From assembly GCF_004799325.1 (NCBI RefSeq), contig NZ_SSMD01000001.1, positions 558,001-622,000 of the forward strand: a stretch of 64,000 nucleotides of DNA, read 5' to 3'. The notes under the pieces are model-generated. The model was given only the letters and a program-made list of their open reading frames with translations. It was not told the origin of the DNA and made no database searches. Position numbers and translations under genes: made by a program. The stretch's first letter is position 1, and each line of letters starts with the position of its first letter. The stretch comes from Thalassobius vesicularis (GTDB lineage: Bacteria > Pseudomonadota > Alphaproteobacteria > Rhodobacterales > Rhodobacteraceae). Positions 876 through 47,513 of this stretch are shown here, one piece after another.

Positions 876-1589
876 GTGAGTTTTCTGAAAGATATTAACG
901 ACCTGGACGGCGAATCGCAGAGCCGGACCACCATCGAGGCGGTCTATGAAGCCCTGCGCGGCGCGATCCTGTCGGGCGAAATCGAGCCGGAATCGCGGCT
1001 GCGGGTCGAGGTGCTGCGCAAGACATTCGGGGTGGGTGCCTCGACCGTGCGCGAGGCGCTGTCGCGGCTGCTGGTCGAGAATCTGGTGACCACCGAAGGC
1101 CAACGCGGGTTCCGCGCGGCGCTGGTATCAGTCGCGGATTTCAAGAACATCGTCGAGATGCGCGCCCTGCTGGAGGCGAAAGCCGTCCGCGAGTCGATCC
1201 AGAAAGGCGATGACGAGTGGGAGAGCGCCTTTGTCGCCGCCCATCACCGCCTGGCCAAGATCGAGACGGAAATGGAAGGCCGCGAGGAACAGGCCGTCGC
1301 CGAGTGGGAGCGCCGCAACCGCGCCTTTCACAACGCGATGATCGGGGCCTGCACAAATGCCTGGCTGCTGAACTTCCGCGAGATTCTGTACAGCCACTCG
1401 ATCCGGTATCTGCATATCGCGATCACGGATCGCTCGATCCCGCGTGACGTGCGCAGCGAACATCAGGCGATCTTTGACGCGGTAATCGCGCGCAACGCCG
1501 ACTTGGCCGAGAAGCTGACGATCGAACACATCTACCGCTCGGTCCCCGTGATCGAGGCGCGGCTGTCCGCGCTGGAAGCGAAGGGGTAA
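876..1589 (+). CDS. GntR-family transcriptional regulator, FCD type
   Basis: DNA-binding regulator of the FadR/FCD subgroup. The N-terminal winged helix (TIEAVYEALRGAILSGEI, then STVREALSRLLVENLV) is followed by an all-helical FCD ligand domain with the typical FHNAMIGA and SEHQAIFDAV segments that position metal and ligand. About 237 residues, usual for the family. The start is set at GTG 876 because AGGGGGA lies 3-5 nt upstream; in-frame ATG codons at 831 and 861 lack a well-spaced ribosome site. It is divergent from the ferredoxin/dioxygenase genes and 4 bp upstream of the peroxiredoxin-like gene, so it probably controls aromatic catabolism or the adjoining transporter. Ligand unknown. Confidence 0.85.
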   Translation: MSFLKDINDLDGESQSRTTIEAVYEALRGAILSGEIEPESRLRVEVLRKTFGVGASTVREALSRLLVENLVTTEGQRGFRAALVSVADFKNIVEMRALLEAKAVRESIQKGDDEWESAFVAAHHRLAKIETEMEGREEQAVAEWERRNRAFHNAMIGACTNAWLLNFREILYSHSIRYLHIAITDRSIPRDVRSEHQAIFDAVIARNADLAEKLTIEHIYRSVPVIEARLSALEAKG

Positions 1590-1593
1590 CGCG

Positions 1594-2130
1594 ATGGCGA
1601 CCCGTCTGTTCCCCGGCCAACCCGTACCGGCGCTGCGCTTTGCGGTAATGGGCCACGGCGGCGCAGATCTGGGCCAGTATGACGTGGGGCAGGATGCGCC
1701 TCCGGGCGGGACGCATGTGGTGTTTCACCGCGGGCGGCACTGCAAATGGACGCGCCTGATGCTGAAGGAACTGGACGACCGCATCGGCGATTTCGCGATC
1801 CGGGGTATCCGGGTGGTGGCCGTCTCGGCCGAGGATCGGGACACCACCGCGCGTCTGAAGGACGAGATGCAGCTGATCCGCCTGCCGCTGGGCCACTCGG
1901 TCGATGCAACGGCAGTTGCGCAGGAATGGGGTCTGTTTTTGACCCGCAACAGCACCGAACCCGACGCGCCCGCGCTGCATTTCGAGCCCGCGCAAATCTG
2001 GGTGAAGGCGGACGGGACGCTGGGGGGTGCCTCGGTCCAGAGCTTGCCGAATTTCTGGCCCGACGTGACGCAGACGCTGCGCGGGATCGAGAACACGCTG
2101 AAGAAATTCCCCGAGAGGGGCGCTGGCTAG
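1594..2130 (+). CDS. peroxiredoxin-like (AhpC/TSA superfamily) protein
   Basis: Thioredoxin-fold protein of 178 residues. The segment HVVFHRGRHCKWTRLMLKEL corresponds to the strand, loop and helix carrying the peroxidatic cysteine in AhpC/TSA proteins, and is followed by the typical GIRVVAVSAEDRD strand. Cys50 is the only cysteine in the protein, so it would be a 1-Cys enzyme or a divergent non-peroxidase member. The usual P-x3-T-x2-C motif is not present in standard form. It begins 4 bp after gntR and probably shares its transcript. It may protect the oxygen-sensitive neighbouring iron enzymes, but that role is inferred. Confidence 0.65.
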   Translation: MATRLFPGQPVPALRFAVMGHGGADLGQYDVGQDAPPGGTHVVFHRGRHCKWTRLMLKELDDRIGDFAIRGIRVVAVSAEDRDTTARLKDEMQLIRLPLGHSVDATAVAQEWGLFLTRNSTEPDAPALHFEPAQIWVKADGTLGGASVQSLPNFWPDVTQTLRGIENTLKKFPERGAG

Positions 2131-2160
2131 CGCCCGCCGGACCGCACTGAGGGAGGATAG

Positions 2161-2187
2161 ATGAGACACACAGACACGCGCACCTGA
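2161..2187 (+). CDS. possible leader peptide (8 codons)
   Basis: A minimal open frame, MRHTDTRT and stop, begins 10 nt after the start of a good ribosome site (GGGAGGATAG). It lies at the head of the 300-bp leader of the ABC transporter operon, before two repeated hairpins. Its three Thr, two Arg and one His codons do not point to branched-chain amino acids. It could be a translated upstream frame or chance. Confidence 0.25.
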   Translation: MRHTDTRT

Positions 2188-2230
2188 CCCGTAAGGGCAC
2201 GCCCGTTTCACCACACAATCCACGCGCCGC

Positions 2231-2276
2231 AGCCCCGAAATCGGATTTCGGGGGTCAGAGGAGCTTTGCGTCGCGC
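2231..2276 (+). promoter_or_regulatory. hairpin element, copy 1, in ABC transporter leader
   Basis: A CCCGAAATC / GATTTCGGG perfect stem is followed at fixed distance by CAGAGGAGCTTTGC and a CGCG block. The same arrangement recurs about 125 bp downstream (copy 2). It is followed by a second purine-rich tract (GAGGGAGGAG) and a TTG-initiated 11-codon frame at 2293-2328. It looks like an RNA element rather than a protein site, because the stem sequence differs between copies while pairing is kept. No known riboswitch class was recognised. Confidence 0.45.
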
Positions 2277-2355
2277 CAAAGAGGGAGGAGCCTTGATCCA
2301 CACCGAGGGGCCTGATCCGCAGGGTTAGAGCCTGATTTCCATTCCTACAGCCCAT

Positions 2356-2402
2356 GCGCCCCCGAAGCCGCCTTCGGGGAACAGAGGAGTTTTGCCGCGC
2401 GG
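2356..2402 (+). promoter_or_regulatory. hairpin element, copy 2, just upstream of the substrate-binding protein gene
   Basis: The second copy has a CCCGAAG / CTTCGGG stem with a four-base loop CCGC, followed by CAGAGGAGTTTTGC and CGCG. The ribosome site (GAGGAGG) of the binding-protein gene lies 20-25 nt further on. Position and repetition suggest post-transcriptional control of the ABC operon. Compared with copy 1, several stem bases differ with pairing preserved. Confidence 0.45.
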
Positions 2403-2430
2403 GCTGCATCCAAACCTGAGGAGGACCACC

Positions 2431-3705
2431 ATGACGAAACACACTCTGTCCCGCCGCGGATTCATGAAGGCGACCGGCGCCACCGGCCTGCTGGCCGCCA
2501 GCGGCATCGCCAGCCCGGCGATCGCCAAGACGAAGAAACTGAAGATCGGCTTCGTGACGCCGCAAACCGGCCCGCTGGCGATTTTCGCGGAACCCGACCA
2601 GTTCACCCTGAACCAGTTCGCCAAGAAGATCGGCGACGGGCTGATGATCAACGGCTCCAAGCACGAGATCGAGTTCATCGTGAAAGACAGCCAGTCGAAC
2701 TCGAACCGGGCCTCGTCGGTCGCGCAAGAGCTGATCCTGGGCGAGGAAGTGGACGTGATCTGCGCCACCTCGACCCCCGACACCACCAACCCGGTGGCAG
2801 ATCAGGCCGAACTGAACGGCGTGCCCTGCCTGACGAACGACACCCCGTGGCAGCCGCACTTCTTTGGCCGTCAGGGCGATCCGGCGAAGGGGTTCCAGTA
2901 TACGTACCACTTCTTCTGGGGGCTGGAGGACATCATCGGGTCCTTCGTCAACATGTGGGACAAGGTGGACACCAACAAGGTGGTCGGCGCGCTGTGGCCC
3001 AACGACCCCGATGGCAACGGCTGGGCGCACCCCGAGCTGGGCTTTCCGCCGGTGATGACGCAGCGTGGCTACAAGCTGGTCGATCCGGGCCGGTATCAGA
3101 ACATGTCGGATGATTTCAGCGCGCAGATTTCGGCGTTCAAACAGGCGGGTGTGGAAATCGTCACCGGTGTGGTCATTCCGCCCGATTTCACCACGTTCTG
3201 GACCCAAGCCGCGCAGCAAGGGTTCCACCCCAAGGTCGTGAACGCCGCCAAGGCGACCGAGTTCCCGCAGGCCGTGGGTGCCCTGGGCGACCGCGCCGAC
3301 GGGCTGAGCGTCGAGGTCTGGTGGTCGCCGCATCACCCGTTCAGCTCGGGGTTCACCGGGCAGACCTCGGCCGAGCTGGCCGCCGATTACGAGGCGCAGA
3401 CGGGCAACCCGTGGACCATGCCGCTGGGCTTCAAGCATTCGCTGTTCGAGGTGATCTTCGACAGCCTGCAACGGTCTGAAGATCCGACCGATCCCGACAG
3501 CATCGCGGCGGCGATCAAGGCGACCAACTACAACTCGGTCGTGGGCAACATCAACTTTGCGGGTGGTCCGGTGCCGAACATCGCCAAGACCCCGCTGGTG
3601 GGCGGCCAATGGCGGCTGGAGAACGGCAAGCCGGTGCTGGACATCGTGGAAAACGGTGCCCATCCCGACATCCCGCTGACCGGCGAGATGAAGGCAATCG
3701 GCTAA
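2431..3705 (+). CDS. ABC transporter substrate-binding protein, HAAT/Liv type, Tat-exported
   Basis: Periplasmic binding protein of 424 residues (Peripla_BP_6 family). The N-terminus has a twin-arginine signal: SRRGFMK at residues 7-13, a hydrophobic run and ASPAIA cleavage region. The mature part begins KLKIGFVTPQTGPLAIF, the usual first strand of branched-chain or amide binding proteins, with DSQSNSNRASSVAQELI further on. The ATG at 2431 follows GAGGAGGACCACC. It heads a complete importer with two permeases and two ATPases downstream. Proximity to a catechol dioxygenase gene suggests an aromatic or amino-acid-like substrate, but the ligand cannot be told from sequence. Confidence 0.85.
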   Translation: MTKHTLSRRGFMKATGATGLLAASGIASPAIAKTKKLKIGFVTPQTGPLAIFAEPDQFTLNQFAKKIGDGLMINGSKHEIEFIVKDSQSNSNRASSVAQELILGEEVDVICATSTPDTTNPVADQAELNGVPCLTNDTPWQPHFFGRQGDPAKGFQYTYHFFWGLEDIIGSFVNMWDKVDTNKVVGALWPNDPDGNGWAHPELGFPPVMTQRGYKLVDPGRYQNMSDDFSAQISAFKQAGVEIVTGVVIPPDFTTFWTQAAQQGFHPKVVNAAKATEFPQAVGALGDRADGLSVEVWWSPHHPFSSGFTGQTSAELAADYEAQTGNPWTMPLGFKHSLFEVIFDSLQRSEDPTDPDSIAAAIKATNYNSVVGNINFAGGPVPNIAKTPLVGGQWRLENGKPVLDIVENGAHPDIPLTGEMKAIG

Positions 3706-3759: not shown

Positions 3760-4494
3760 ATGGCAACGATCCTGTCGCTGTCCAATGTGAATAAGAATTT
3801 CGGCGCGCTGACGGTCTCGGACGATGTGACGTTCGACATGCCCGAGGGCCAGGCGCTGGGGATCATCGGGCCGAACGGCGCCGGTAAATCGACCCTGTTC
3901 AACCTGATTGGCGGCACTTTGGCTGTCAGCTCGGGCACCGTGCAATTCGCCAAGCAGGACGTGACGCGCGTGCCCGCGGCGGAACGTTGCCGGATGGGGA
4001 TCGCGCGGTCGTTCCAGATCCCGCACCCATTCGTGGGGATGAGCGTTTACGAAAACCTGCTGGTGGCGTCGAGCTTCGGCAATTCGGGGCATCACGATGC
4101 CAAGGCCGAATGCCGGGACATTCTGGACCGCACCGGGCTGTTGCCCAAGGCCAACCGTCCGGCGGGCAGCCTGACATTGCTGGAGCGGAAACGGCTGGAG
4201 CTGGCGCGGGCGCTGGCCTCGGGGCCGAAGCTGCTGTTGCTGGATGAAATCGCGGGCGGGCTGACCGAGGCGGAGTGTCACGAGCTGGTCGAGACGATCA
4301 AGGGCATCCGGGACTCGGGCGTTTCGATCATCTGGATCGAACATATCGTCCACGCCCTGACCGCCGTGGTCGAGCGGCTGATCGTGATCGACTTCGGCAA
4401 GATCGTCGCCGAGGGCGAGCCGTCAAAGGTGATGGCCGACCCGCTGGTGCAGGAAATTTACATGGGGATTTCGGTCGATGACACGGCTGCTTGA
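3760..4494 (+). CDS. livG: ABC transporter ATP-binding protein, LivG type
   Basis: Cytoplasmic ATPase of 244 residues. Walker A is GPNGAGKST, Walker B is LLLLDEIAGGLTEAE and the H-loop lies in IIWIEHIVHAL. The signature motif is non-canonical: LTLLERKRLELARALA in place of the usual L-S-x-G-Q type helix. The start follows GGAGGAGCCG. It overlaps livF by 17 bp, indicating translational coupling. It pairs with LivF to drive the LivH/LivM importer. Confidence 0.85.
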   Translation: MATILSLSNVNKNFGALTVSDDVTFDMPEGQALGIIGPNGAGKSTLFNLIGGTLAVSSGTVQFAKQDVTRVPAAERCRMGIARSFQIPHPFVGMSVYENLLVASSFGNSGHHDAKAECRDILDRTGLLPKANRPAGSLTLLERKRLELARALASGPKLLLLDEIAGGLTEAECHELVETIKGIRDSGVSIIWIEHIVHALTAVVERLIVIDFGKIVAEGEPSKVMADPLVQEIYMGISVDDTAA

Positions 4495-5194
4495 GACACA
4501 GGGGCTGACGGCGTTCTACGGGGATTTCCAGGCGCTGTTCGGCATTGATGTGAGCGTGGACGAGGGCGAATGCGTGGCCCTTATCGGCTCGAACGGGGCG
4601 GGGAAATCGACGTTTCTGCGGGCGATCACCGGGATGATCCCGGCGCGCGGGCAGGACGTGATGTTCGCCGGTCAGCACATCGCGGGATGGGCCGCGGATC
4701 GCATCCACAAGGCCGGGATGGCGATGGTGCCCGAGGGGCGGCGGCTGTTCCCTTCGCTATCGGTCGAGGAAAACCTGCTGATCGGCGCGGCGGGCAAACG
4801 GCCGGGTCCGTGGTCGCTGGACGCGGTTTACGAGCTGTTCCCCGATCTGGTGGCGAAACGCCACAATCCGGGCACGGCGCTGTCGGGCGGGCAGCAGCAG
4901 ATGGTGGCCATTGGGCGGGCGCTCATGTCGAACCCTCAGCTGCTGTTGTGTGACGAAATCAGCCTCGGGCTGGCCCCGAAAGTCATCAAGGACATCTACA
5001 CCGCCGTGCCGAAAATCCGCGCAGGCGGCACCGCCATTCTGGTGGTGGAACAGGACGTGGGCCAGGCGCTGGCCGTGGCCGACCGGGTCTATTGCTTCAT
5101 GGAGGGGCGCGTGACCCTGACCGGCACCCCCGCCACCCTGACCCGCGCCCAAATCGCGGCGGCCTATTTCGGCACCACAGAGGAGGCCCACTGA
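4478..5194 (+). CDS. livF: ABC transporter ATP-binding protein, LivF type
   Basis: Second ATPase of the importer, 238 residues. It contains Walker A GSNGAGKST, signature ALSGGQQQMVAIGRALM and Walker B LLLCDEISLGLAP. The MVPEGRRLFPSLSVEENL segment is characteristic of LivF. The start overlaps the end of livG and the stop overlaps the livH start (TGATG), so the operon is tightly coupled. Confidence 0.88.
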   Translation: MTRLLETQGLTAFYGDFQALFGIDVSVDEGECVALIGSNGAGKSTFLRAITGMIPARGQDVMFAGQHIAGWAADRIHKAGMAMVPEGRRLFPSLSVEENLLIGAAGKRPGPWSLDAVYELFPDLVAKRHNPGTALSGGQQQMVAIGRALMSNPQLLLCDEISLGLAPKVIKDIYTAVPKIRAGGTAILVVEQDVGQALAVADRVYCFMEGRVTLTGTPATLTRAQIAAAYFGTTEEAH

Positions 5195-6054
5195 TGGTCT
5201 GGATCAATGCAATCGTGCAGGGCGTCCTGCTGGGCGGGCTCTATGCCCTGTTCGCGGCGGGGCTGAGCCTGATGTTCGGCGTCATGCGGTTTATCAACAT
5301 CGCGCATGGCGATTTCATCGTGACCGCAGCCTACCTGATGGTGGCCTTGGTCACCGGGCTGGCGGTGCATCCGGCGGTGGCCGTGGTGCTGGTGCTGATC
5401 GCGCTGACGACGGCGGGCTATGTCAACCAGCGCATCCTGTTGAACCGGGTGCTGGGCAAGGACATCCTGCCGCCCATTCTGGTGACGTTCGGCATGTCGA
5501 TCATCATCCAGAACGCGTTGTTGGAGATCTTCTCGGCCGACAGTCAGCGCCTGCCTGCGGGCTGGCTGGAAACGGGCAGCATCGTGCTGTCGGACGCCGT
5601 GGCGATTGGCTGGCTGCCGCTGCTGATGTTCGCCGCCGCCGTTGCGGTGATCGGCGGGCTGCAACTGGTGTTCTACAAGACGCCACTGGGGCGGATGCTG
5701 CGGGCGACCTCGGACGACCCGGAAATCGTGCCGCTGATGGGGGGCAACAACGCGCATATCTTTGCGATTGCGACGGCGCTGGCCAGTCTGGTCGTGGGCG
5801 TGGCCGGGATTTTCCTGGCGATGAAGACGAACTTTGACCCCTCGGCCGGCCCTGCCCGGCTGCTGTTCGCGTTCGAGGCGGTCATTATCGGCGGTCTGGG
5901 CAGTCTGTGGGGCACGCTGGTGGGCGGCATCGTTCTGGGTGTCGCGCAGACGCTGGGTGCGCAGATCGACGCAGGCGTGCAAATCCTGGCCGGGCACCTG
6001 GTGTTCCTGGCGCTGCTGGTCGTGCGTCCGCGCGGCCTGTTTCCCAAGATGTGA
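5194..6054 (+). CDS. livH: branched-chain amino acid-type ABC permease, LivH
   Basis: Inner-membrane permease of 286 residues with about eight hydrophobic segments. The N-terminus GLYALFAAGLSLMFGVMRFI followed by NIAHGDF is the diagnostic LivH motif. The conserved GGLGSLWGTLVGGIVLGV loop near the C-terminus contacts the ATPases. The start ATG at 5194 overlaps the livF stop; GAGGAGG lies 9-13 nt upstream. Confidence 0.9.
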   Translation: MVWINAIVQGVLLGGLYALFAAGLSLMFGVMRFINIAHGDFIVTAAYLMVALVTGLAVHPAVAVVLVLIALTTAGYVNQRILLNRVLGKDILPPILVTFGMSIIIQNALLEIFSADSQRLPAGWLETGSIVLSDAVAIGWLPLLMFAAAVAVIGGLQLVFYKTPLGRMLRATSDDPEIVPLMGGNNAHIFAIATALASLVVGVAGIFLAMKTNFDPSAGPARLLFAFEAVIIGGLGSLWGTLVGGIVLGVAQTLGAQIDAGVQILAGHLVFLALLVVRPRGLFPKM

Positions 6055-6063
6055 GGGGCCAAG

Positions 6064-7068
6064 ATGACTTCGATGGATATGACTCAGGGTCGGGGCATTT
6101 CGGTCTCGGTGGTGCTGCGGCTGGTGCTGCTGGCAGTGGTGGCCGGGCTGGCCGTGGCGCCGGTCTGGGCCGGGCGTTCGGACCTGCGCCTGCTGATGGA
6201 GGTGTTCAGCTTTCTGGCGCTGGCGCAGATGTGGAACCTGCTGGCGGGCTATACCGGGCTGATCAGCGTAGGGCAGCAGGCATTCGTTGGGCTGGGCGGC
6301 TACCTGTTCTTTGCGCTGGCGATGTTCGCGGGGTTGCCCCTGCTGATCGCCATCCCGGCGGCGGCGATTGCCACGGCGGTGATCGCGGTGCCCACAGGCT
6401 GGATCGCGTTCCGCCTGCAAGGCCCGTATTTCGCCATCGGCACCTGGGTGATCGCCGAGGTGTTCCGGCTGAGCGCGGCGCAGATCGGGGCACTTGGCGG
6501 TGGCTCGGGCATTTCACTGCCGGTGGCGCTGGCGAAATCGCTGGCCGACAGCCGCGGCGGGCGCGAGATGGTGATGTATTACATCGCGTTTACCATCGGG
6601 ATCGCCTCGGTTCTGATGGTGTGGGGGCTGCTGCGATCGAAATGGGGGCTGGCGCTGACGGCGATCCGCGACAGCGAACCGGCGGCCGAGGCGATGGGCG
6701 TCGCCACCCGGCGCGTCAAGTTCATGATCTACGTGCTGGCGGCGTTCTGGACCTCGCTGACCGGGGGCTTCGTGTTCCTGCAAAAACTGCGGATCACGCC
6801 CGACGCGGCCTTTAGCCTGAACGAATGGACGGCCTTCGTGATCTTCATCGTGGTGATCGGCGGAATCGGGTCCATCGAGGGGCCGGTGATCGGGGTTGTG
6901 ATCTTCTTTGCGCTGCGCGAGGTCGCCTCGGACTGGGGGACCTGGTACCTGATCATGATGGGCGGCATCGCCATCGCGGTGATGCTGGTGGACAAACGCG
7001 GCGTCTGGGGGGCGATCCGGGCGCGGACGAACCTGTCGATCTTTCCGGTGACCAAGGTTCTGGACTAA
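6064..7068 (+). CDS. livM: branched-chain amino acid-type ABC permease, LivM
   Basis: Second permease subunit, 334 residues and strongly hydrophobic. It contains NLLAGYTGLISVGQQAFVGLG, the family signature, and the cytoplasmic coupling segment GLALTAIRDSEPAAEAMGV. The conserved GGIGSIEGPVIGVVIF loop follows. It starts 10 bp after livH and ends the operon, converging with the large permease-fusion gene on the other strand. Confidence 0.9.
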   Translation: MTSMDMTQGRGISVSVVLRLVLLAVVAGLAVAPVWAGRSDLRLLMEVFSFLALAQMWNLLAGYTGLISVGQQAFVGLGGYLFFALAMFAGLPLLIAIPAAAIATAVIAVPTGWIAFRLQGPYFAIGTWVIAEVFRLSAAQIGALGGGSGISLPVALAKSLADSRGGREMVMYYIAFTIGIASVLMVWGLLRSKWGLALTAIRDSEPAAEAMGVATRRVKFMIYVLAAFWTSLTGGFVFLQKLRITPDAAFSLNEWTAFVIFIVVIGGIGSIEGPVIGVVIFFALREVASDWGTWYLIMMGGIAIAVMLVDKRGVWGAIRARTNLSIFPVTKVLD

Positions 7069-42894: not shown

Positions 42895-43054
42895 AGGGAA
42901 AACCGCCTGTGAAAGAGTATCGCCCTACTGTCTAAACCGGGTGTGCGCGCGTGTCCAGAACGGCCGGGGCGATCAAAAACCCGGCAGAATCCGGCGCTGA
43001 TGCTGTCCAGCGAAAAACCGCGCGCAAGGCTTGCCCGACTCGGGCCGCGTCACG

Positions 43055-43799
43055 ACGCTGTACCGGTTGGTGCGCGACCTGACGCGTGCGCACAAGGCGC
43101 TGATCCCGATGGGGGCCGAGGGGGGCCGCCTATGCGGTCGCTTGCCTGGCGCTGGGGCTGAACCATGCCCGGCTGATCGCCTATCGCGGCCCTGAGATCC
43201 TGCAGTCCGGTCTGGTCGCCGTGGCTGTGGCGGTTGCGGCGATGACCCTGCCCGCGATGGCTGGACATCCCCTGCCCGCCCGGTTCGGCGCCTTGTTCGG
43301 GCTGTCCTGCCTGGCGCTGACGATCCTGGCACGACTGGTGCTGCGGCAGTCGGTGATCCACCTGTACGAGATGGGCACCGCCCGCAAACGCGTGCTGGGA
43401 TCGTCCGGGTCGGTGGTACCGATGTTCCGCGAACAGATCGGGCGCGGCGGGCCGGTGACGGTAACCCACCCCGAGGTGTCGCGCTATTTCATGACGATTT
43501 CCGAGGCGGTGCGACTGGTGCTGCTGGCGGGTTCTTTCGCAGCCGAGGGCGACATCGAGATCGTCTATACCGGCCTGCGCCCCGGCGAAAAGCTGGACGA
43601 GGACATGATGACGACACCGCATGGCAAGATCATGCGCTCGCCCGAACGCGGGCTGTCCGAGCTGGAAATGGCCGTCGCCTTGCGCGATCTTCGCGGTGCG
43701 ATTGCGGCGCGCAACACGGATGCCGCCCATGCCCTGCTAGATCGCCGGGTCGAGGGCCGCGCGCTGATCGGCCCGCAACGTGCGGTACCGGCTGAATAA
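43055..43799 (+). pseudogene. decayed nucleoside-diphosphate-sugar epimerase/dehydratase (WbpM/CapD family)
   Basis: The segment [16 protein letters not shown] (43058 on) belongs to the N-terminus of these membrane-anchored enzymes, but the frame shifts between about 43110 and 43128, after which the hydrophobic region continues as [20 protein letters not shown]. The NAD-binding SDR core that should follow is missing: the sequence jumps from ILARLVLRQ to the C-terminal part ([36 protein letters not shown]). A second deletion joins EGDI directly to [13 protein letters not shown], losing the usual VLDMG strand. So there is at least one frameshift and two deletions. The intact gene would act in capsule or O-antigen synthesis. 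Confidence 0.75.
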
Positions 43800-43864
43800 T
43801 CAGTTGGGCCTGTCGCCCCGGAGGATTGCCTGTTAGAATTTGCGAAAGCAAAGACGATCAGGCT

Positions 43865-44230
43865 ATGACCGACACCCCCAAGGGCAGCAAAACATACTCT
43901 CGCCGCGACGCATTGCGCGCCGTTGGCAAGTATTCCGTTGCGCTGAGCGGGGCCTCGGTCGTCGCCCTGTCCGCCGAGGAAGCCGCAGCCCAGGCCGCAT
44001 GCAGCCGCCAGAACCCACCTTGGTGGTGCGCCACAGGGGGCAATCCGGGCAATGGCGGCGGCGGCTCGACCGGGTCAACCAGCACCGGAACTGGCACTGG
44101 AAATGGCAATGGTGGCGGGAACGGGAACGGGAACGGCCGGGGCAACGGAAATGGCAACGCCTTTGGCCTTGGCCAAGATCCGAACAACAATCCGAAATAC
44201 GACTTCAAGTCGTTCGAGACCAACGACTGA
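43865..44230 (+). CDS. small Tat-leader peptide 1 (Cys-loop, Gly/Asn-rich tail)
   Basis: 121 residues; first of four related genes. The leader has YSRRDAL at 12-17 with twin arginines 13-14, VGKY at 20-23, a short hydrophobic stretch and AAAQA ending near 44. The loop C-SRQNPPWW-C spans Cys46 to Cys55. The remaining tail is low-complexity Gly/Asn/Thr with in-frame GGGAAC-type DNA repeats, ending in an acidic, aromatic KYDFKSFETND. Export by Tat and cleavage after AQA are inferred from the leader. No enzyme activity is expected. The downstream PqqD-kinase and nucleotidyltransferase genes suggest modification. Start ATG 43865; the ribosome site is weak. Confidence 0.65.
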   Translation: MTDTPKGSKTYSRRDALRAVGKYSVALSGASVVALSAEEAAAQAACSRQNPPWWCATGGNPGNGGGGSTGSTSTGTGTGNGNGGGNGNGNGRGNGNGNAFGLGQDPNNNPKYDFKSFETND

Positions 44231-44275
44231 CCCCCTGAACCTGCGTAGTTTCCCGCGACAAACCCTTGGGTTCAT

Positions 44276-44296
44276 GCTATCGATTTGAAAAAATCG
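44276..44296 (+). other. short hairpin between peptide genes 1 and 2
   Basis: TCGATTT and AAATCGA can pair around a four-base A-rich loop, just before the ribosome site (GAGG) of peptide gene 2. It could modulate expression; weak evidence. Confidence 0.3.
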
Positions 44297-44311
44297 ACCA
44301 CGAGGCAGGTC

Positions 44312-44500
44312 ATGAGCGAGCAAGAGTCCGGGCGCGAACAGTATTCGCGCCGCGACGTATTGGCATCCGTCGGAAAATACATGGGCGCAGCCACCGGGGC
44401 TGCGGTTGTCGCCATGACAGCGCAAGAGGCACTGGCCAGCAACGCCTCTAGCAACCCGTGTGAAAACAAGAACCCCCCACCCCGATGTTTCGGAAGGTAA
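44312..44500 (+). CDS. small Tat-leader peptide 2 (Cys-loop)
   Basis: 62 residues. YSRRDVL (twin arginines 13-14), VGKY at 20-23, GAAVVAM and QEALAS reproduce the leader of peptide 1. The loop C-ENKNPPPR-C is Cys50 to Cys59, followed by only FGR. It is the shortest member, lacking a tail. Ribosome site CGAGG, 6-9 nt before the ATG. Confidence 0.62.
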   Translation: MSEQESGREQYSRRDVLASVGKYMGAATGAAVVAMTAQEALASNASSNPCENKNPPPRCFGR

Positions 44501-44566
44501 ACCTGGTACTTTCCGGGTTCTTGCACGGGCATAATTGTGCTACTTTGCACCAAAAAAGAGCAGAGT

Positions 44567-44788
44567 ATGACACAGGCATCCCAATCAGACAGCGCGTTCA
44601 CGCGTCGCGAAGCCCTGCGTGCCGTGGGGAAATATTCACTTGCTGCGTCCGGCGCGGCCCTTGTTGCGCTTAGCGCCGAGGAAGCCGCCGCACAGGCCGC
44701 ATGCAGCACTCCGAACCCGCCGCACTGGTGCTTTGGCGGCGGTGGCGGAGGCGGCGGAGGTGGTGGCCGCGGTGGCGGTCGCGGCTAA
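44567..44788 (+). CDS. small Tat-leader peptide 3 (Cys-loop, poly-Gly tail)
   Basis: 73 residues. FTRREAL (twin arginines 13-14), VGKY at 20-23, and an Ala-rich end identical to that of peptide 1 (ALSAEEAAAQAAC). The loop C-STPNPPHW-C is Cys46 to Cys55, then Phe, eleven Gly and RGGGRG. The Gly codons are a GGN repeat that could vary in length. If cut after AQA the product would be about 29 residues. Confidence 0.65.
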   Translation: MTQASQSDSAFTRREALRAVGKYSLAASGAALVALSAEEAAAQAACSTPNPPHWCFGGGGGGGGGGGRGGGRG

Positions 44789-44824
44789 GCCACCCTTCGT
44801 AACGGTGAATTTTGAAAGTACCCA

Positions 44825-45121
44825 ATGTTTGAAAATCCAGACCCCCCCGAGGGACAACGTTACCTGACCCGGCGCGAGGTTCTGAAATCCGTGGGCAAGT
44901 ATTCGTCCTTGGCCGCCGGGGCAACCGTTGTCGCGATTTCCGCCACCGAGGCACTGGCCCAAGCCGCCGCCAGCAACTGGAAATGCCGGGATCACTATCC
45001 CTGGTGGCTGTGCTGGTTCCTGGGCTATCAAGACACCAGACAAGCGCCCGAATATGGCGGCTGGCAGGATTTCCCCGAGAACCGGAACCTGCCGGATCAC
45101 TGGGAAAAGACCTATGACTAG
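44825..45121 (+). CDS. small Tat-leader peptide 4 (Cys-loop, Trp-rich tail)
   Basis: 98 residues. LTRREVL (twin arginines 16-17), VGKY at 23-26, GATVVAI and TEALAQA match the other leaders. The loop C-RDHYPWWL-C is Cys54 to Cys63, keeping the eight-residue spacing but with Tyr-Pro-Trp for Asn-Pro-Pro. The tail is non-repetitive and aromatic (WFLGYQDTRQAPEYGGW and NLPDHWEKTYD). It is the most divergent member and ends 9 bp before the PqqD-kinase gene, so the two are probably co-transcribed. Confidence 0.62.
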   Translation: MFENPDPPEGQRYLTRREVLKSVGKYSSLAAGATVVAISATEALAQAAASNWKCRDHYPWWLCWFLGYQDTRQAPEYGGWQDFPENRNLPDHWEKTYD

Positions 45122-45130
45122 CGCAAACCC

Positions 45131-46240
45131 ATGCCATTGATACACGCTCACCCGTTGGGGGAGGCGGTTGCCCTGCATGCCCCGACCTCGGGCGCGATCG
45201 TGCTAAGCAATGAGTTTGGGCGCGAGATCGCCAAGGGCGTCAATGACGGGCTGACGGCGGCTCAGATCGCTGCAGAGCTGGCCGATCCGTCCGAGCGGGC
45301 CGAGGCCGAGGCGGCCATCCATCAGGTTCTGCAAGCGTGGGACGACGCCGGCCTGCTGCATCGCACGCCTCTGCCGTTTCCCGATCCCGTCGATCACCGC
45401 CCGGTGCCGCATTGGCGCGATCTGGGCGGTCTGGCGGGGACGGCGGCGCTGCACCTGCCCGACGGAATCCTGGCCGAGCAAATCGACACCGTGATGGGCC
45501 ACATGCCCGCCCAGCCGGGCCGGCCCGTACGACGGCTGGAGGCCGTGGCTGATCGCGACGGCTATGGCATCTTTCGGGACGGTGATGCGATCACCGGCCG
45601 GATCGATCTGGACGCCGCACGCTTTGTGCTGATGCGCGAGGTCGCTGAAATCACTTGTGGCGCTGCGGATGTCTCTGCCGTTTTCCATGCGGGGTGTGTC
45701 GCGCGAAACGGTCGGGCTCTGATCCTGTGCGGCGACAGTGGCAACGGCAAATCCACGCTGACCTTTGGGCTGGTGAACGCCGGTTGCGCCTATCTGGGCG
45801 ACGACCATGTGCCGCTGCATCGGGACGGGCGCCGCGTGATGGCCTTTGCAACCGCCGCGGGGGTCAAGGCCGGGGCCTGGGATCTGCCCGAAATCAAAAG
45901 CCTGCAAGCGCGCTATGGCCTGACCGCCCAAAGCCCGCGGGTTGGCGTGCGCTACCTGCCGCTGCACTTGGCCGATGGCCCGGACACGGGTGCGGATTTC
46001 CCGGTTTCCGCGCTGGTTTTTCCGGAATTTCGACCCGGTCAGCCATTCTCACTCACACGAATTGCGCCGGAACAGGCTCTGATTCAGGCCCTGAAGGCGG
46101 GCAGTCGCCTGTCAGCCTCGCACCGAAGCAACCTTGCGCCTTTGGCGGATTTCCTGAACCATGTGCCCGCCTATCAATTGCGGTATGGCGCGTCGGATCA
46201 ATCGGTGACTGCATGTCTGGACCTGCTGAACCAGTGCTAG
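45131..46240 (+). CDS. PqqD/RRE-like domain fused to an HPr-kinase-like domain (HprK-related kinase A type)
   Basis: 369 residues. Residues 8-80 (FGREIAKGVNDGLTAAQIAAEL and VLQAWDDAGLL) resemble PqqD, the fold that binds RiPP leader peptides. The central part resembles HPr serine kinase: FHAGCVARNGRALILCGDSG with Walker A GDSGNGKS at residues 201-208, then CAYLGDDHVPLHRDG. Kinases of this kind occur in some lasso-peptide clusters, where they phosphorylate the precursor. It lies directly after the four peptide genes and overlaps the nucleotidyltransferase gene by 28 bp. A role in recognising the shared leader and modifying the peptides is inferred. Confidence 0.75.
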   Translation: MPLIHAHPLGEAVALHAPTSGAIVLSNEFGREIAKGVNDGLTAAQIAAELADPSERAEAEAAIHQVLQAWDDAGLLHRTPLPFPDPVDHRPVPHWRDLGGLAGTAALHLPDGILAEQIDTVMGHMPAQPGRPVRRLEAVADRDGYGIFRDGDAITGRIDLDAARFVLMREVAEITCGAADVSAVFHAGCVARNGRALILCGDSGNGKSTLTFGLVNAGCAYLGDDHVPLHRDGRRVMAFATAAGVKAGAWDLPEIKSLQARYGLTAQSPRVGVRYLPLHLADGPDTGADFPVSALVFPEFRPGQPFSLTRIAPEQALIQALKAGSRLSASHRSNLAPLADFLNHVPAYQLRYGASDQSVTACLDLLNQC

Positions 46241-47301
46241 GGCTGTGCCCCTCGGCGCCGCATCGGGCGGTGCTGGGGCTGATGGCCGTCGCGCTGGGGC
46301 GGCCCTGTCCTGCGTCGTTGCCGAGCGACTTGAACGCCAGCGCGCCCGAGCAGATCGCCGCCATCGCCAATCAGGGCCACGCGCAAACGATCCTGCACAG
46401 TGCGTTCGTGCGCCTGCCCGAGCTGGGCAACGCCCTGCCCCGCGATCTGCTGATCTACTTTGCCGAGATGCAGCGCGCCAATGCGGACCGCAATCAGCAA
46501 GCGGTGGCCCAGATGCGGGAAATCGCCGGGATTCTGACCGCGCACCAGATCCCCATCATGGCACTGAAAGGCGCAGCGGATGTGCTGGACCCGCTGCACG
46601 ACATCCCCGCGCATCGCTATATCAGCGACCTGGACCTGCTGGTGCCCGCAGATCGCGCAGCCGAAGCGGCGCGGCTGTTGCGGGCCGAATGGGGTCTGCC
46701 GGACGAGGATCAAGACGCCGGGCCGCATCACCACCTGCCGCAAATCATCAGCCCCGCGCATCTGTTCACGGTCGAGCTGCACGTCCGCCCCGGCTCGGAT
46801 GCCGTATCAGGGGTGCTGCTGCCGGACCAGATGTTCGCGCGGGCAGAACGTGTCGAGGGGATGCTGATCCCCTGCCCCGAAGATCGCCTTTTGCACCACG
46901 TCCTGCACGGGATGGAGCTGCGGCACGAGACCGCGACGCTGAACCTGCGACTGTTGGCGGATCATGTGCAGTATCGTCTGCGGATGCCGCAAGAGACCCG
47001 AAATCAGGCCCTAACCCGGCTGGATGCGACGGGCCACGGCGACTGGCTGCGCGATCTGGATCGGTTGGCCGATGCGATGCTGGGACTGAAACCAAGCGGT
47101 TGGGCGGCGCAGGCGTTGATCCGGTTTGGCGACCCGCAGGCGGCGATGCGGCGTGATACGCTGTTTTGGGCGCGGCATTATCTACGGCGGCTGGGAACCA
47201 GCGCCACGTATCGACGGCATATCATGCGCAAGGTGTTTTCGCCCGCCGCCTGGGCCGAGTTCTTCCACTTTCACCGCGAACGGCGCGGGCGGTTCAAATG
47301 A
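46213..47301 (+). CDS. nucleotidyltransferase family protein (NTP_transf_5 type)
   Basis: 362 residues. IMALKGAADVLDPL and RYISDLDLLVP (catalytic D139-x-D141) are hallmarks of the family often found beside PqqD/HprK-like genes; FTVELHVRPG carries the third acidic residue. The C-terminal half is helical. It may transfer a nucleotide to a peptide or protein; the substrate is not known. The start at 46213 overlaps the kinase gene, suggesting coupled synthesis. Last gene of the peptide cluster, followed by a strong hairpin. Confidence 0.75.
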   Translation: MSGPAEPVLGLCPSAPHRAVLGLMAVALGRPCPASLPSDLNASAPEQIAAIANQGHAQTILHSAFVRLPELGNALPRDLLIYFAEMQRANADRNQQAVAQMREIAGILTAHQIPIMALKGAADVLDPLHDIPAHRYISDLDLLVPADRAAEAARLLRAEWGLPDEDQDAGPHHHLPQIISPAHLFTVELHVRPGSDAVSGVLLPDQMFARAERVEGMLIPCPEDRLLHHVLHGMELRHETATLNLRLLADHVQYRLRMPQETRNQALTRLDATGHGDWLRDLDRLADAMLGLKPSGWAAQALIRFGDPQAAMRRDTLFWARHYLRRLGTSATYRRHIMRKVFSPAAWAEFFHFHRERRGRFK

Positions 47302-47306
47302 TGTAC

Positions 47307-47336
47307 GGAGGGGCCATGGCGTTGGATGGCCCCTCC
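47307..47336 (+). terminator. strong hairpin ending the peptide cluster
   Basis: A perfect 11-bp stem, GGAGGGGCCAT with ATGGCCCCTCC around an 8-nt loop, lies 6 bp after the nucleotidyltransferase stop. There is no clear T-run, so termination may be partial or Rho-assisted. The following 47337-47470 holds no recognisable gene. Confidence 0.55.
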
Positions 47337-47469
47337 GCTCCCCACGTGCTCCCTACTCACCACACGTGTAACTGGATTGGGTCCGGCCATCCTGACTCGG
47401 CTTTCCTTGACCATAGCGCATATCCGCCAACCAAGGAACGACCGAGTGTTTAGAATACGCCTCAAATGC

Positions 47470-47491
47470 AAAACGCCCGCCAAGGCGGGCG
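47470..47491 (-). terminator. Rho-independent terminator of the DUF2853 gene
   Basis: On the minus strand, GGCGGGCG-type 8-bp stem (47474-47491, CGCCCGCC with GGCGGGCG, loop of two bases) is followed by TTTTGC. It lies 22 bp after the DUF2853 stop. Confidence 0.8.
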
Positions 47492-47513
47492 CTGCGAAAA
47501 CTTGTGGGCAGGA

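Follow-up and report, generated by a model that had tools for sequence, protein, structure and literature searches.

What would four small peptides, alike at their N-termini and different further on, be doing beside an enzyme that joins a peptide-binding domain to a kinase? The question is raised by positions 43865-47301 of a 64,000-nucleotide stretch of Thalassobius vesicularis DNA (Rhodobacteraceae; NCBI RefSeq assembly GCF_004799325.1, contig NZ_SSMD01000001.1, positions 558,001 to 622,000), referred to here as the window. An earlier note made from the sequence alone proposed that the peptides carry twin-arginine translocation (Tat) leaders, are bound through them by a PqqD-like domain, are phosphorylated or nucleotidylated and then leave through Tat. 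Its observation is confirmed by the analysis described here, and its interpretation is partly supported. With moderate confidence, and on sequence evidence, we favor a linear system resembling those that make ribosomally synthesized and post-translationally modified peptides (RiPPs), in which the leader would double as a Tat signal, guiding phosphorylation and possibly a nucleotidyltransferase (NTase) step ahead of Tat export.

The four peptide genes follow one another on the forward strand: peptide 1 (P0006, 43865-44230, 121 aa), peptide 2 (P0001, 44312-44500, 62 aa), peptide 3 (P0002, 44567-44788, 73 aa), and peptide 4 (P0003, 44825-45121, 98 aa). All four open reading frames (ORFs) lie where the earlier note placed them, and alignment of their first 47-50 residues gives 18 invariant columns, including R13, R14, L17, V20, G21, K22, Y23, G29, A30, V33, A34, and S47. 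Within the element that had been read as GAxVVA, G29, A30, V33, and A34 are indeed invariant, while peptide 3 has GAALVA; the invariant serine just after the leader was absent from that reading. A twin arginine in RR-x-[FL]-L, a weakly hydrophobic stretch and then an AxA site constitute the textbook Tat layout, and the peptides follow it with an SRRxxL-type motif, a weakly hydrophobic region and an AxA cleavage site predicted by eye; TatC is encoded in the same genome. Peptide 1 combines a Tat-like leader (YSRRDALRAVGKY...) with an AQA site, the core ACSRQNPPWWC and a Gly/Asn-rich tail. In peptide 2 (leader YSRRDVLASVGKY..., core NASSNPCENKNPPPRCFGR) the serine 34 residues after the twin arginine (RR+34) stands five residues past ALA, in peptide 3 (leader FTRREALRAVGKY..., core ACSTPNPPHWCF, then a poly-Gly/Arg tail) the S and T of 'CST' are the only hydroxyl residues after AQA, and in peptide 4 (leader LTRREVLKSVGKY..., core AASNWKCRDHYPWWLCW...) the only serine after AQA is that at RR+34. 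The C-terminal tails, previously described as different, do diverge, becoming Gly/Asn-rich, short, poly-Gly/Arg or aromatic-rich, but only beyond a C-x4-P-x3-C pattern that was found by eye near the AxA site of all four (CSRQNPPWWC, CENKNPPPRC, CSTPNPPHWC, and CRDHYPWWLC). When the 3.79-Mb, 46-contig genome was searched with the leader, its four matches at E <= 0.001 all fell at this cluster. The leader model scores peptides 1 to 4 at 58.5, 58.2, 55.5, and 55.7 bits, values that are not independent because the model was built with these peptides, and gives another Tat-like protein of the window (2329-3702) 5 bits. A first Tat-pattern scan was noisy, returning 15 rows in the 64-kb window, four of them the peptides.

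The fusion kinase (P0004, 45131-46240, forward strand, 369 aa) has its ATG 9 bases after peptide 4 and overlaps by 28 nt the NTase gene (46213-47301, forward strand; 362 aa from an ATG at 46213 picked by inspection, P0005 being the part from 46240). The earlier identification of these two genes as a PqqD/RRE-HprK fusion and a nucleotidyltransferase, where RRE denotes a RiPP recognition element, is borne out by domain matches, those of the kinase lying below the curated cut-offs: 61.6 bits (E 6e-17) against a cut-off of 200 for TIGR04352 HprK_rel_A, and 16.1 bits (E 0.017) against 35 for TIGR04353 PqqD_rel_X. The NTase matches PF14907 NTP_transf_5 at 94 bits (E 1e-26; gathering 31.2) and contains an SDLDLLV stretch; the DxD motif is catalytic in the NTase fold. 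Residues ~1-85 of the kinase are RRE-like and its C-terminal half is HprK-like, with H186, the P-loop lysine K207, and D224-D225. A profile of nine kinases (A5) matches the RREs TbiB1 (5v1u) and TfuB1 (6jx3) over positions 3-88 at E about 1e-5, the RRE and HPr kinase matches together running from about 1e-5 to 1e-7; it also matches HprK structures over the P-loop, and many unrelated P-loop proteins at weaker E. Structures predicted from single sequences were of low quality (mean pLDDT 37-38), giving strand-strand-strand-helix-helix-helix for residues 6-72 with pLDDT above 50 for the helices (27-75) only. By the profile match, the N-terminal domain of this kinase family resembles solved RREs, as the earlier note supposed, and is predicted to have the RRE/PqqD fold. 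H186 and K207 are kept in all nine kinases and the Asp-Asp pair in seven; one review describes a His-Lys-Asp-Asp set as essential in the kinases of lasso peptides (PMC9266682). NTase and PqqD-HprK occur within a single ORF of ~760 aa at L177 (G478:C1:260500-273000, ORF 4488-6779), where the NTase match begins at 52, the kinase match spans 369-751 and the fetched stretch showed no leader. At L176 (G472:C622, ORF 891-3350, 820 aa) the kinase lies in the C-terminal half.

The pairing of leader and kinase was surveyed across 629 alphaproteobacterial genomes, comprising a family sample of 248 and a class sample of 385 with four shared, as the earlier note had suggested. A strong leader (E <= 1e-7) and a full-length fusion kinase occurred together in 12 genomes, with a leader only in three, a kinase only in two (G558, whose leader is truncated at a contig end, and G472) and neither in 612; the totals of 15 genomes with strong leaders and 14 with full-length kinases give a Fisher p of 6e-21, relatedness being ignored. 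An isolated chance cluster is disfavored by these surveys. The co-occurrence thus favors the earlier proposal; leaders occurring widely without the enzyme pair would have told against it and were not seen, though three leader genomes have no detected kinase and some genomes have extra leaders far from it. In the class sample a full-length kinase was one matching from model position <=24 to >=359 at E <= 1e-20, plus G614, whose kinase is split between two contig ends; incomplete matches, among them those of G369 (12-242) and G274 (57-364), were left uncounted, and since the best 5 candidates per genome were scored for the kinase and 18-28 for leaders, misses are possible. The kinase side of the family sample came from a single-sequence search with P0004 plus loci read individually; this search matched 203 of the 248 genomes, most among the matches listed covering only the P-loop region in the manner of ordinary HprK, and 11 longer matches were read. 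L037, L041, and L042 were dropped, as they matched the HprK part only. One leader alignment, A4, served for both samples. A profile search of genome contigs with alignment A3 gave three loci, each matched only around the P-loop.

At the level of individual loci, a leader gene lies within ~1.6 kb of the kinase at 20 of 25 (counting the split kinase L178/L179 as one), and a Tat-pattern scan blind to the leader profile found a leader-like ORF near the kinase at 17 of 22. Leader genes can stand ahead of the kinase, after the NTase or on the opposite strand; that of L077 is cut by a contig end, and two of the loci, L102 and L106, are nearly identical. At 18 of the 25 loci the NTase gene abuts or overlaps that of the kinase on the same strand, and at two (L083, L100) it lies <1.7 kb away on the other strand; none was detected at the remaining five (L077, L081, L099, L176, L178/L179). 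A plasmid search returned 29 records with a match, and the 10 that were read contained further PqqD-HprK loci, in records named Sinorhizobium, Ensifer, Rhizobium, Leisingera, Parasedimentitalea, Methylobacterium, Methylosinus, and Novosphingobium; one relative, L101, is carried by pSymB of Sinorhizobium meliloti strain Ak57. Peptide tails at L078, L079, L080, L101, L104, L169, L170, L172, L174, and L175 have a recurrent NNGxGNG-type motif, common to otherwise different peptides and followed in several by DGxPG.

Which residue might such an enzyme modify? Counting ungapped from the first Arg of the twin arginine, RR+34 is Ser, Thr or Tyr in 30 of the 36 distinct peptides that the model scores at E <= 1e-7, usually 2-3 residues past the AxA site. 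In the window it is Ser in all four peptides, and for peptides 3 and 4 no other Ser follows AQA. Such a hydroxyl, at a largely fixed distance from the twin arginine, is what one would expect if a bound leader fixes the acceptor site. A filtered set of 32 peptides (35 rows minus L185, L106, and the second L171 peptide, the last two being near-copies) has the hydroxyl in 29 (24 Ser, 4 Tyr, and 1 Thr), while positions 35-49 have at most 6 each; within the leader itself, counts of 15-18 are reached at positions 24, 25, and 28. The alignment-start filter excluded L178/L120, the three L181 paralogues, the second L173 peptide, and the cut L077, and none of these with a readable sequence has Ser, Thr or Tyr at exactly 34. 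Among 10 weak matches resembling other Tat proteins (E 1e-5 to 1e-3, with L185 omitted as another leader type), two have a hydroxyl there, and in one of these two the RR is misplaced; in a smaller control of ordinary Tat proteins, 4 of 14 were extracted and none has one. Locating the site by a 'last AxA' rule was rejected as it blurs the position, +2 being Ser, Thr or Tyr in only 20 of 34. All four tyrosines belong to the four peptides of genome G089, found on three contigs (L035, L194, L196), whose tails are very different, some Arg-rich, some Asp/Glu-rich and some of other kinds. L181 (G325:C61, 4930-5988, reverse strand) encodes three consecutive paralogous leader peptides whose cores are rich in Cys (e.g., CEDLVVNCEPCSTCTPC); the G325 kinase is on another contig, and in these peptides a Tyr lies 1-2 residues after RR+34. 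L171 (G539:C226, 6031-6504, reverse strand) encodes two tandem, near-identical leader peptides in a genome with no detected PqqD-HprK kinase, with Tyr at RR+33 rather than +34.

The closest described parallel is provided by the linear polyphosphorylated peptides (LPPs) of Bacillota, published in May 2026 (Popov et al., 2026; PMC13381572), which, in the available part of that paper, are called restricted to Bacillota by the authors and in which LppK polyphosphorylates core Ser3. Both systems bring together an RRE, an HprK-like kinase and an NTP transferase with no cyclase (the kinase and PqqD matches in the window being below curated cut-offs), and small precursors (one to three in LPP) with a conserved N-terminus and variable C-terminus; Ser3 lies just after the LPP cleavage site as the hydroxyl here usually lies 2-3 residues past AxA, and LPP clusters, reported amid capsule loci in Bacilli, often sit in capsule or polysaccharide loci, as do some of the relatives considered here. 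The accessible text also marks clear differences: the LPP leader reads YxxPxVLxHQxIxFETxxS whereas the window leaders read RRxxLxxVGKY with no YxxP, the RRE is a separate protein rather than fused to the kinase, the host is Bacillota instead of Alphaproteobacteria, and LPP clusters bring their own peptidase (LppS, SipW-like) and exporter (LppD, MsbA-like). For the present cluster, Pfam and NCBIfam scans of its six genes and a reading of the neighboring ORFs revealed neither, the rest of the genome not being searched. The earlier statement that this is no known type of RiPP cluster needs amending, as the enzymatic core is shared with LPPs while leader type, peptidase and exporter differ. Phosphorylated and glycosylated lasso peptides (paeninodin, PadeK; pseudomycoidin, PsmK/PsmN) likewise pair a His-Lys-Asp-Asp HprK-like kinase with a partner of a nucleotidyltransferase family, but, as far as the review was available, they are cyclized and phosphorylated on a C-terminal Ser (PMC9266682), whereas the present cluster shows no cyclase and its candidate residue would lie close to the N-terminus of the mature peptide; neither a macrolactam synthetase nor a B2 leader peptidase was found among the six scanned genes or the direct neighbors, whose ORFs were read. 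HPr-rel-A systems (TIGR04352 and TIGR04353) also have an HprK-related kinase with a PqqD-family partner, the latter separate in canonical loci going by the NCBIfam name alone, whereas the PqqD-like domain of the window is fused and both domains fall short of the cut-offs (61.6 vs 200 and 16.1 vs 35 bits). Bufferins and other MNIO-modified RiPPs have a general-export signal peptide as leader, but the available account describes Sec rather than Tat, and an MNIO enzyme with a partner protein rather than an RRE, kinase and NTase (PMC12452194). Lacking the LPP leader motif and a peptidase and exporter of its own, and scoring below the HPr-rel-A cut-offs, the system is a variant rather than a member of these groups; by analogy, it would work like the LPP or the phosphorylated lasso pathway.

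The sequences themselves establish the gene content, the domain matches, the co-occurrence and adjacency of the genes, and a hydroxyl at a largely fixed position; from these features we infer leader binding, phosphorylation, an NTase reaction, Tat export and cleavage, and a function for the peptides. The N-terminal PqqD/RRE domain of the kinase would bind the leader in the cytoplasm, probably including RRxxLxxxGK[YF], and would thereby place the RR+34 hydroxyl in the HprK active site, where it may be phosphorylated, perhaps repeatedly. In the least certain step, the NTase might add a group to the phosphate or nucleotidylate it, as has been proposed for PsmN and LppN. The modified peptide would then exit via Tat, as suggested by the way the leader is built, by its AxA site, by a genome that encodes TatC and by a cluster in which no exporter gene was found. 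General signal peptidase would remove the leader and so bring the modified residue close to the N-terminus of the mature peptide. The bound RRE may keep the Tat signal hidden until the peptide is fully modified, and the four tails may be alternative cargos for one enzyme pair.

A number of points weigh against this pathway. The kinase scores just below the gathering threshold of PF05402 PqqD (22.9 vs 23.4 bits), its relatives at L035 and L036 have D-E and E-D in place of the Asp pair, and curated Tat models (NCBIfam, Pfam) match the peptides weakly, below cut-off. Tat usually carries folded proteins, whereas the peptide tails look disordered. Three genomes (G368, G360, G539) have a strong leader and no detected kinase, no leader was found in the stretch read at five of the 25 kinase loci (L082, L083, L099, L176, L177), and some leaders lie far from the kinase in G605 (~50 kb and 2 Mb) or on other contigs in G627, G089, and G325; these distant extra leaders look like in-trans substrates. 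The hydroxyl is missing from RR+34 in six of the 36 strong peptides and in three weaker L181 paralogues (30 of 39 having it), and, as the leader model includes that column, recall leans towards peptides with a hydroxyl there. The line at E <= 1e-7 was set after the list had been seen. Most of the 96 class genomes with a hit contain weaker matches, reaching E 0.01, and many of these matches resemble ordinary Tat proteins. Furthermore, A4 contained the leaders of all four family genomes with both components and of six of the nine in the class sample (G000, G627, G431, G333, G592, G478), so that on the leader side G605, G325, and G614 alone are independent. With the class leaders except the window's own removed, the resulting stricter model recovers the other five loci at E 3e-7 or better, scored on the fetched stretches only, and training of A4 cannot explain the scarcity of strong leaders in other genomes. 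With respect to the NTase step, deletion of lppN is reported to have had no visible effect in the LPP system, in the part of that paper available (PMC13381572).

Tat-like leaders also accompany related kinases of other architectures. Six loci (L039, L040, L043, L044, L045, L084) encode proteins in which HprK comes first and a PqqD-like end follows, assigned by eye at all except L084, where a model matched; Tat-like peptides occur nearby, with Ser at RR+30 in six of seven leaders and at +29 in L045, and no NTase match was obtained at these loci. Among 10 loci over the TIGR04352 cut-off, all of which have an NTase match, a pattern scan found a Tat-like protein near seven (L086, L087, L088, L090-L093). 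Each of the seven has Ser or Thr at +2 after AxA. In five this residue is a Ser at RR+26; L086 has Thr at that distance when its second RR is taken as the start, and L087 has, by eye, a Thr at +25. L089 and L095 (as L049, L055) have weaker leader-like matches and L094 none. The RR+30 and RR+26 sets are small and drawn from individual loci rather than genome-wide surveys. Shorter HprK-like genes with Tat-like peptides nearby at L159, L163, L165, and L168, matching the HprK-PqqD leader model more weakly, may be a further sub-type.

Directly upstream of the cluster, on the forward strand, lies a Polysacc_synt_2 gene (43221-43796; PF02719, E 4e-26) that is partial, its best stretch covering 171-227 of the 293-position model; this polysaccharide-biosynthesis gene (43000-43800) is probably a decayed remnant, and is context rather than a proven part of the cluster. 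It shares with the cluster the 4.6-kb interval between glmM and DUF2853 (42895-47513), and as these two genes are ~0.15 kb apart in the same-genus genome G076, the whole stretch is absent there; G076 is the sole informative comparison, four other fetched family genomes having no glmM in the stretch. Cluster GC is 0.61-0.67, not distinct from the upstream flank, a promoter scan found none, and there were seven terminator-like sites against 3.5 in shuffles. Polysaccharide clusters surround three of seven annotated relatives (L102, L105, L106, in two genera), while the surroundings of L099, L100, L101, and L104 are of other kinds. Such neighbors, in some loci, suggest that the peptides may be a cell-surface or matrix component.

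The same surroundings lend themselves to a simpler account, in which the peptides are ordinary small Tat substrates of the surface or matrix and the enzyme pair is their neighbor by chance in a decayed polysaccharide island. The partial gene, the stretch absent from G076, and the polysaccharide clusters around three of seven relatives fit this account, but it does not anticipate a pairing that recurs in 12 of 629 genomes and at 20 of 25 loci in varied surroundings, nor the gap of some 50 bits that separates the four peptides, themselves part of the model, from the other Tat-like protein of the window; it is already disfavored and we regard it as very improbable. Tat proofreading chaperones of the TorD type offer another precedent: PqqD-HprK could bind the Tat signal, with ATP or GTP only timing release, and the NTase could modify something else. 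The NCBIfam name of TIGR04353 is in fact 'peptide chaperone', the conserved leader is Tat-like, and two of nine relatives have a changed Asp pair in the kinase motif; yet H186 and K207 persist in all nine, a hydroxyl occupies RR+34 in 30 of 36 strong peptides, as Tyr in the four of one genome, in the manner of an acceptor site, and NTase and kinase are coupled, through gene overlap and in one case through fusion, which together make a chaperone role rather unlikely.

It could be argued instead that the leader serves the RRE alone, the twin arginine contacting that domain, and that other housekeeping systems such as Sec handle cleavage and export. Conservation around RRxxLxxxGK[YF] does extend past the twin arginine, NCBIfam and Pfam Tat-signal models match weakly and below cut-off, and RiPPs with Sec signals are known from the bufferins, so far as that source is available (PMC12452194). 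However, RR-x-[FL]-L, a weakly hydrophobic stretch and AxA recur in all three sub-systems looked at, and we consider a pure RRE leader unlikely.

Because the HprK-first and TIGR04352 loci also show Tat-like leaders with a hydroxyl at a largely constant distance, the HprK-related peptide kinases of Proteobacteria (PqqD-HprK, HprK-PqqD, and HPr-rel-A) may tentatively be viewed as one RiPP class. In such a class the Tat signal would be both RRE leader and ruler, holding the acceptor about 34, 30, or 26 residues from the twin arginine, with Ser, Thr or Tyr ~two residues past the signal-peptidase site, and its products would be Tat-exported proteins with a phosphate- or phosphoglycan-tagged N-terminus, possibly linking them to surface polysaccharide. 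In the open PMC literature neither a Tat-leader RiPP nor the leader/PqqD-HprK pairing was found described; no paper came up for HPr-rel-A, a name given by NCBI, and related terms brought up PMC13381572 and PMC9064862. The terms kinase, HPr and twin-arginine were not found in the available parts of PMC12710340 and PMC7470986; precursors bearing signal peptides are described as rare, and those described as Sec-dependent, in the accessible portion of PMC12452194. If true, a Tat-leader RiPP class would be new as far as the literature was searched, and would raise the question of what keeps the signal peptide from the Tat gate until the RRE-kinase has finished. The HPr-rel-A families would, in turn, gain a substrate, a target residue and a chemistry that can be tested directly.

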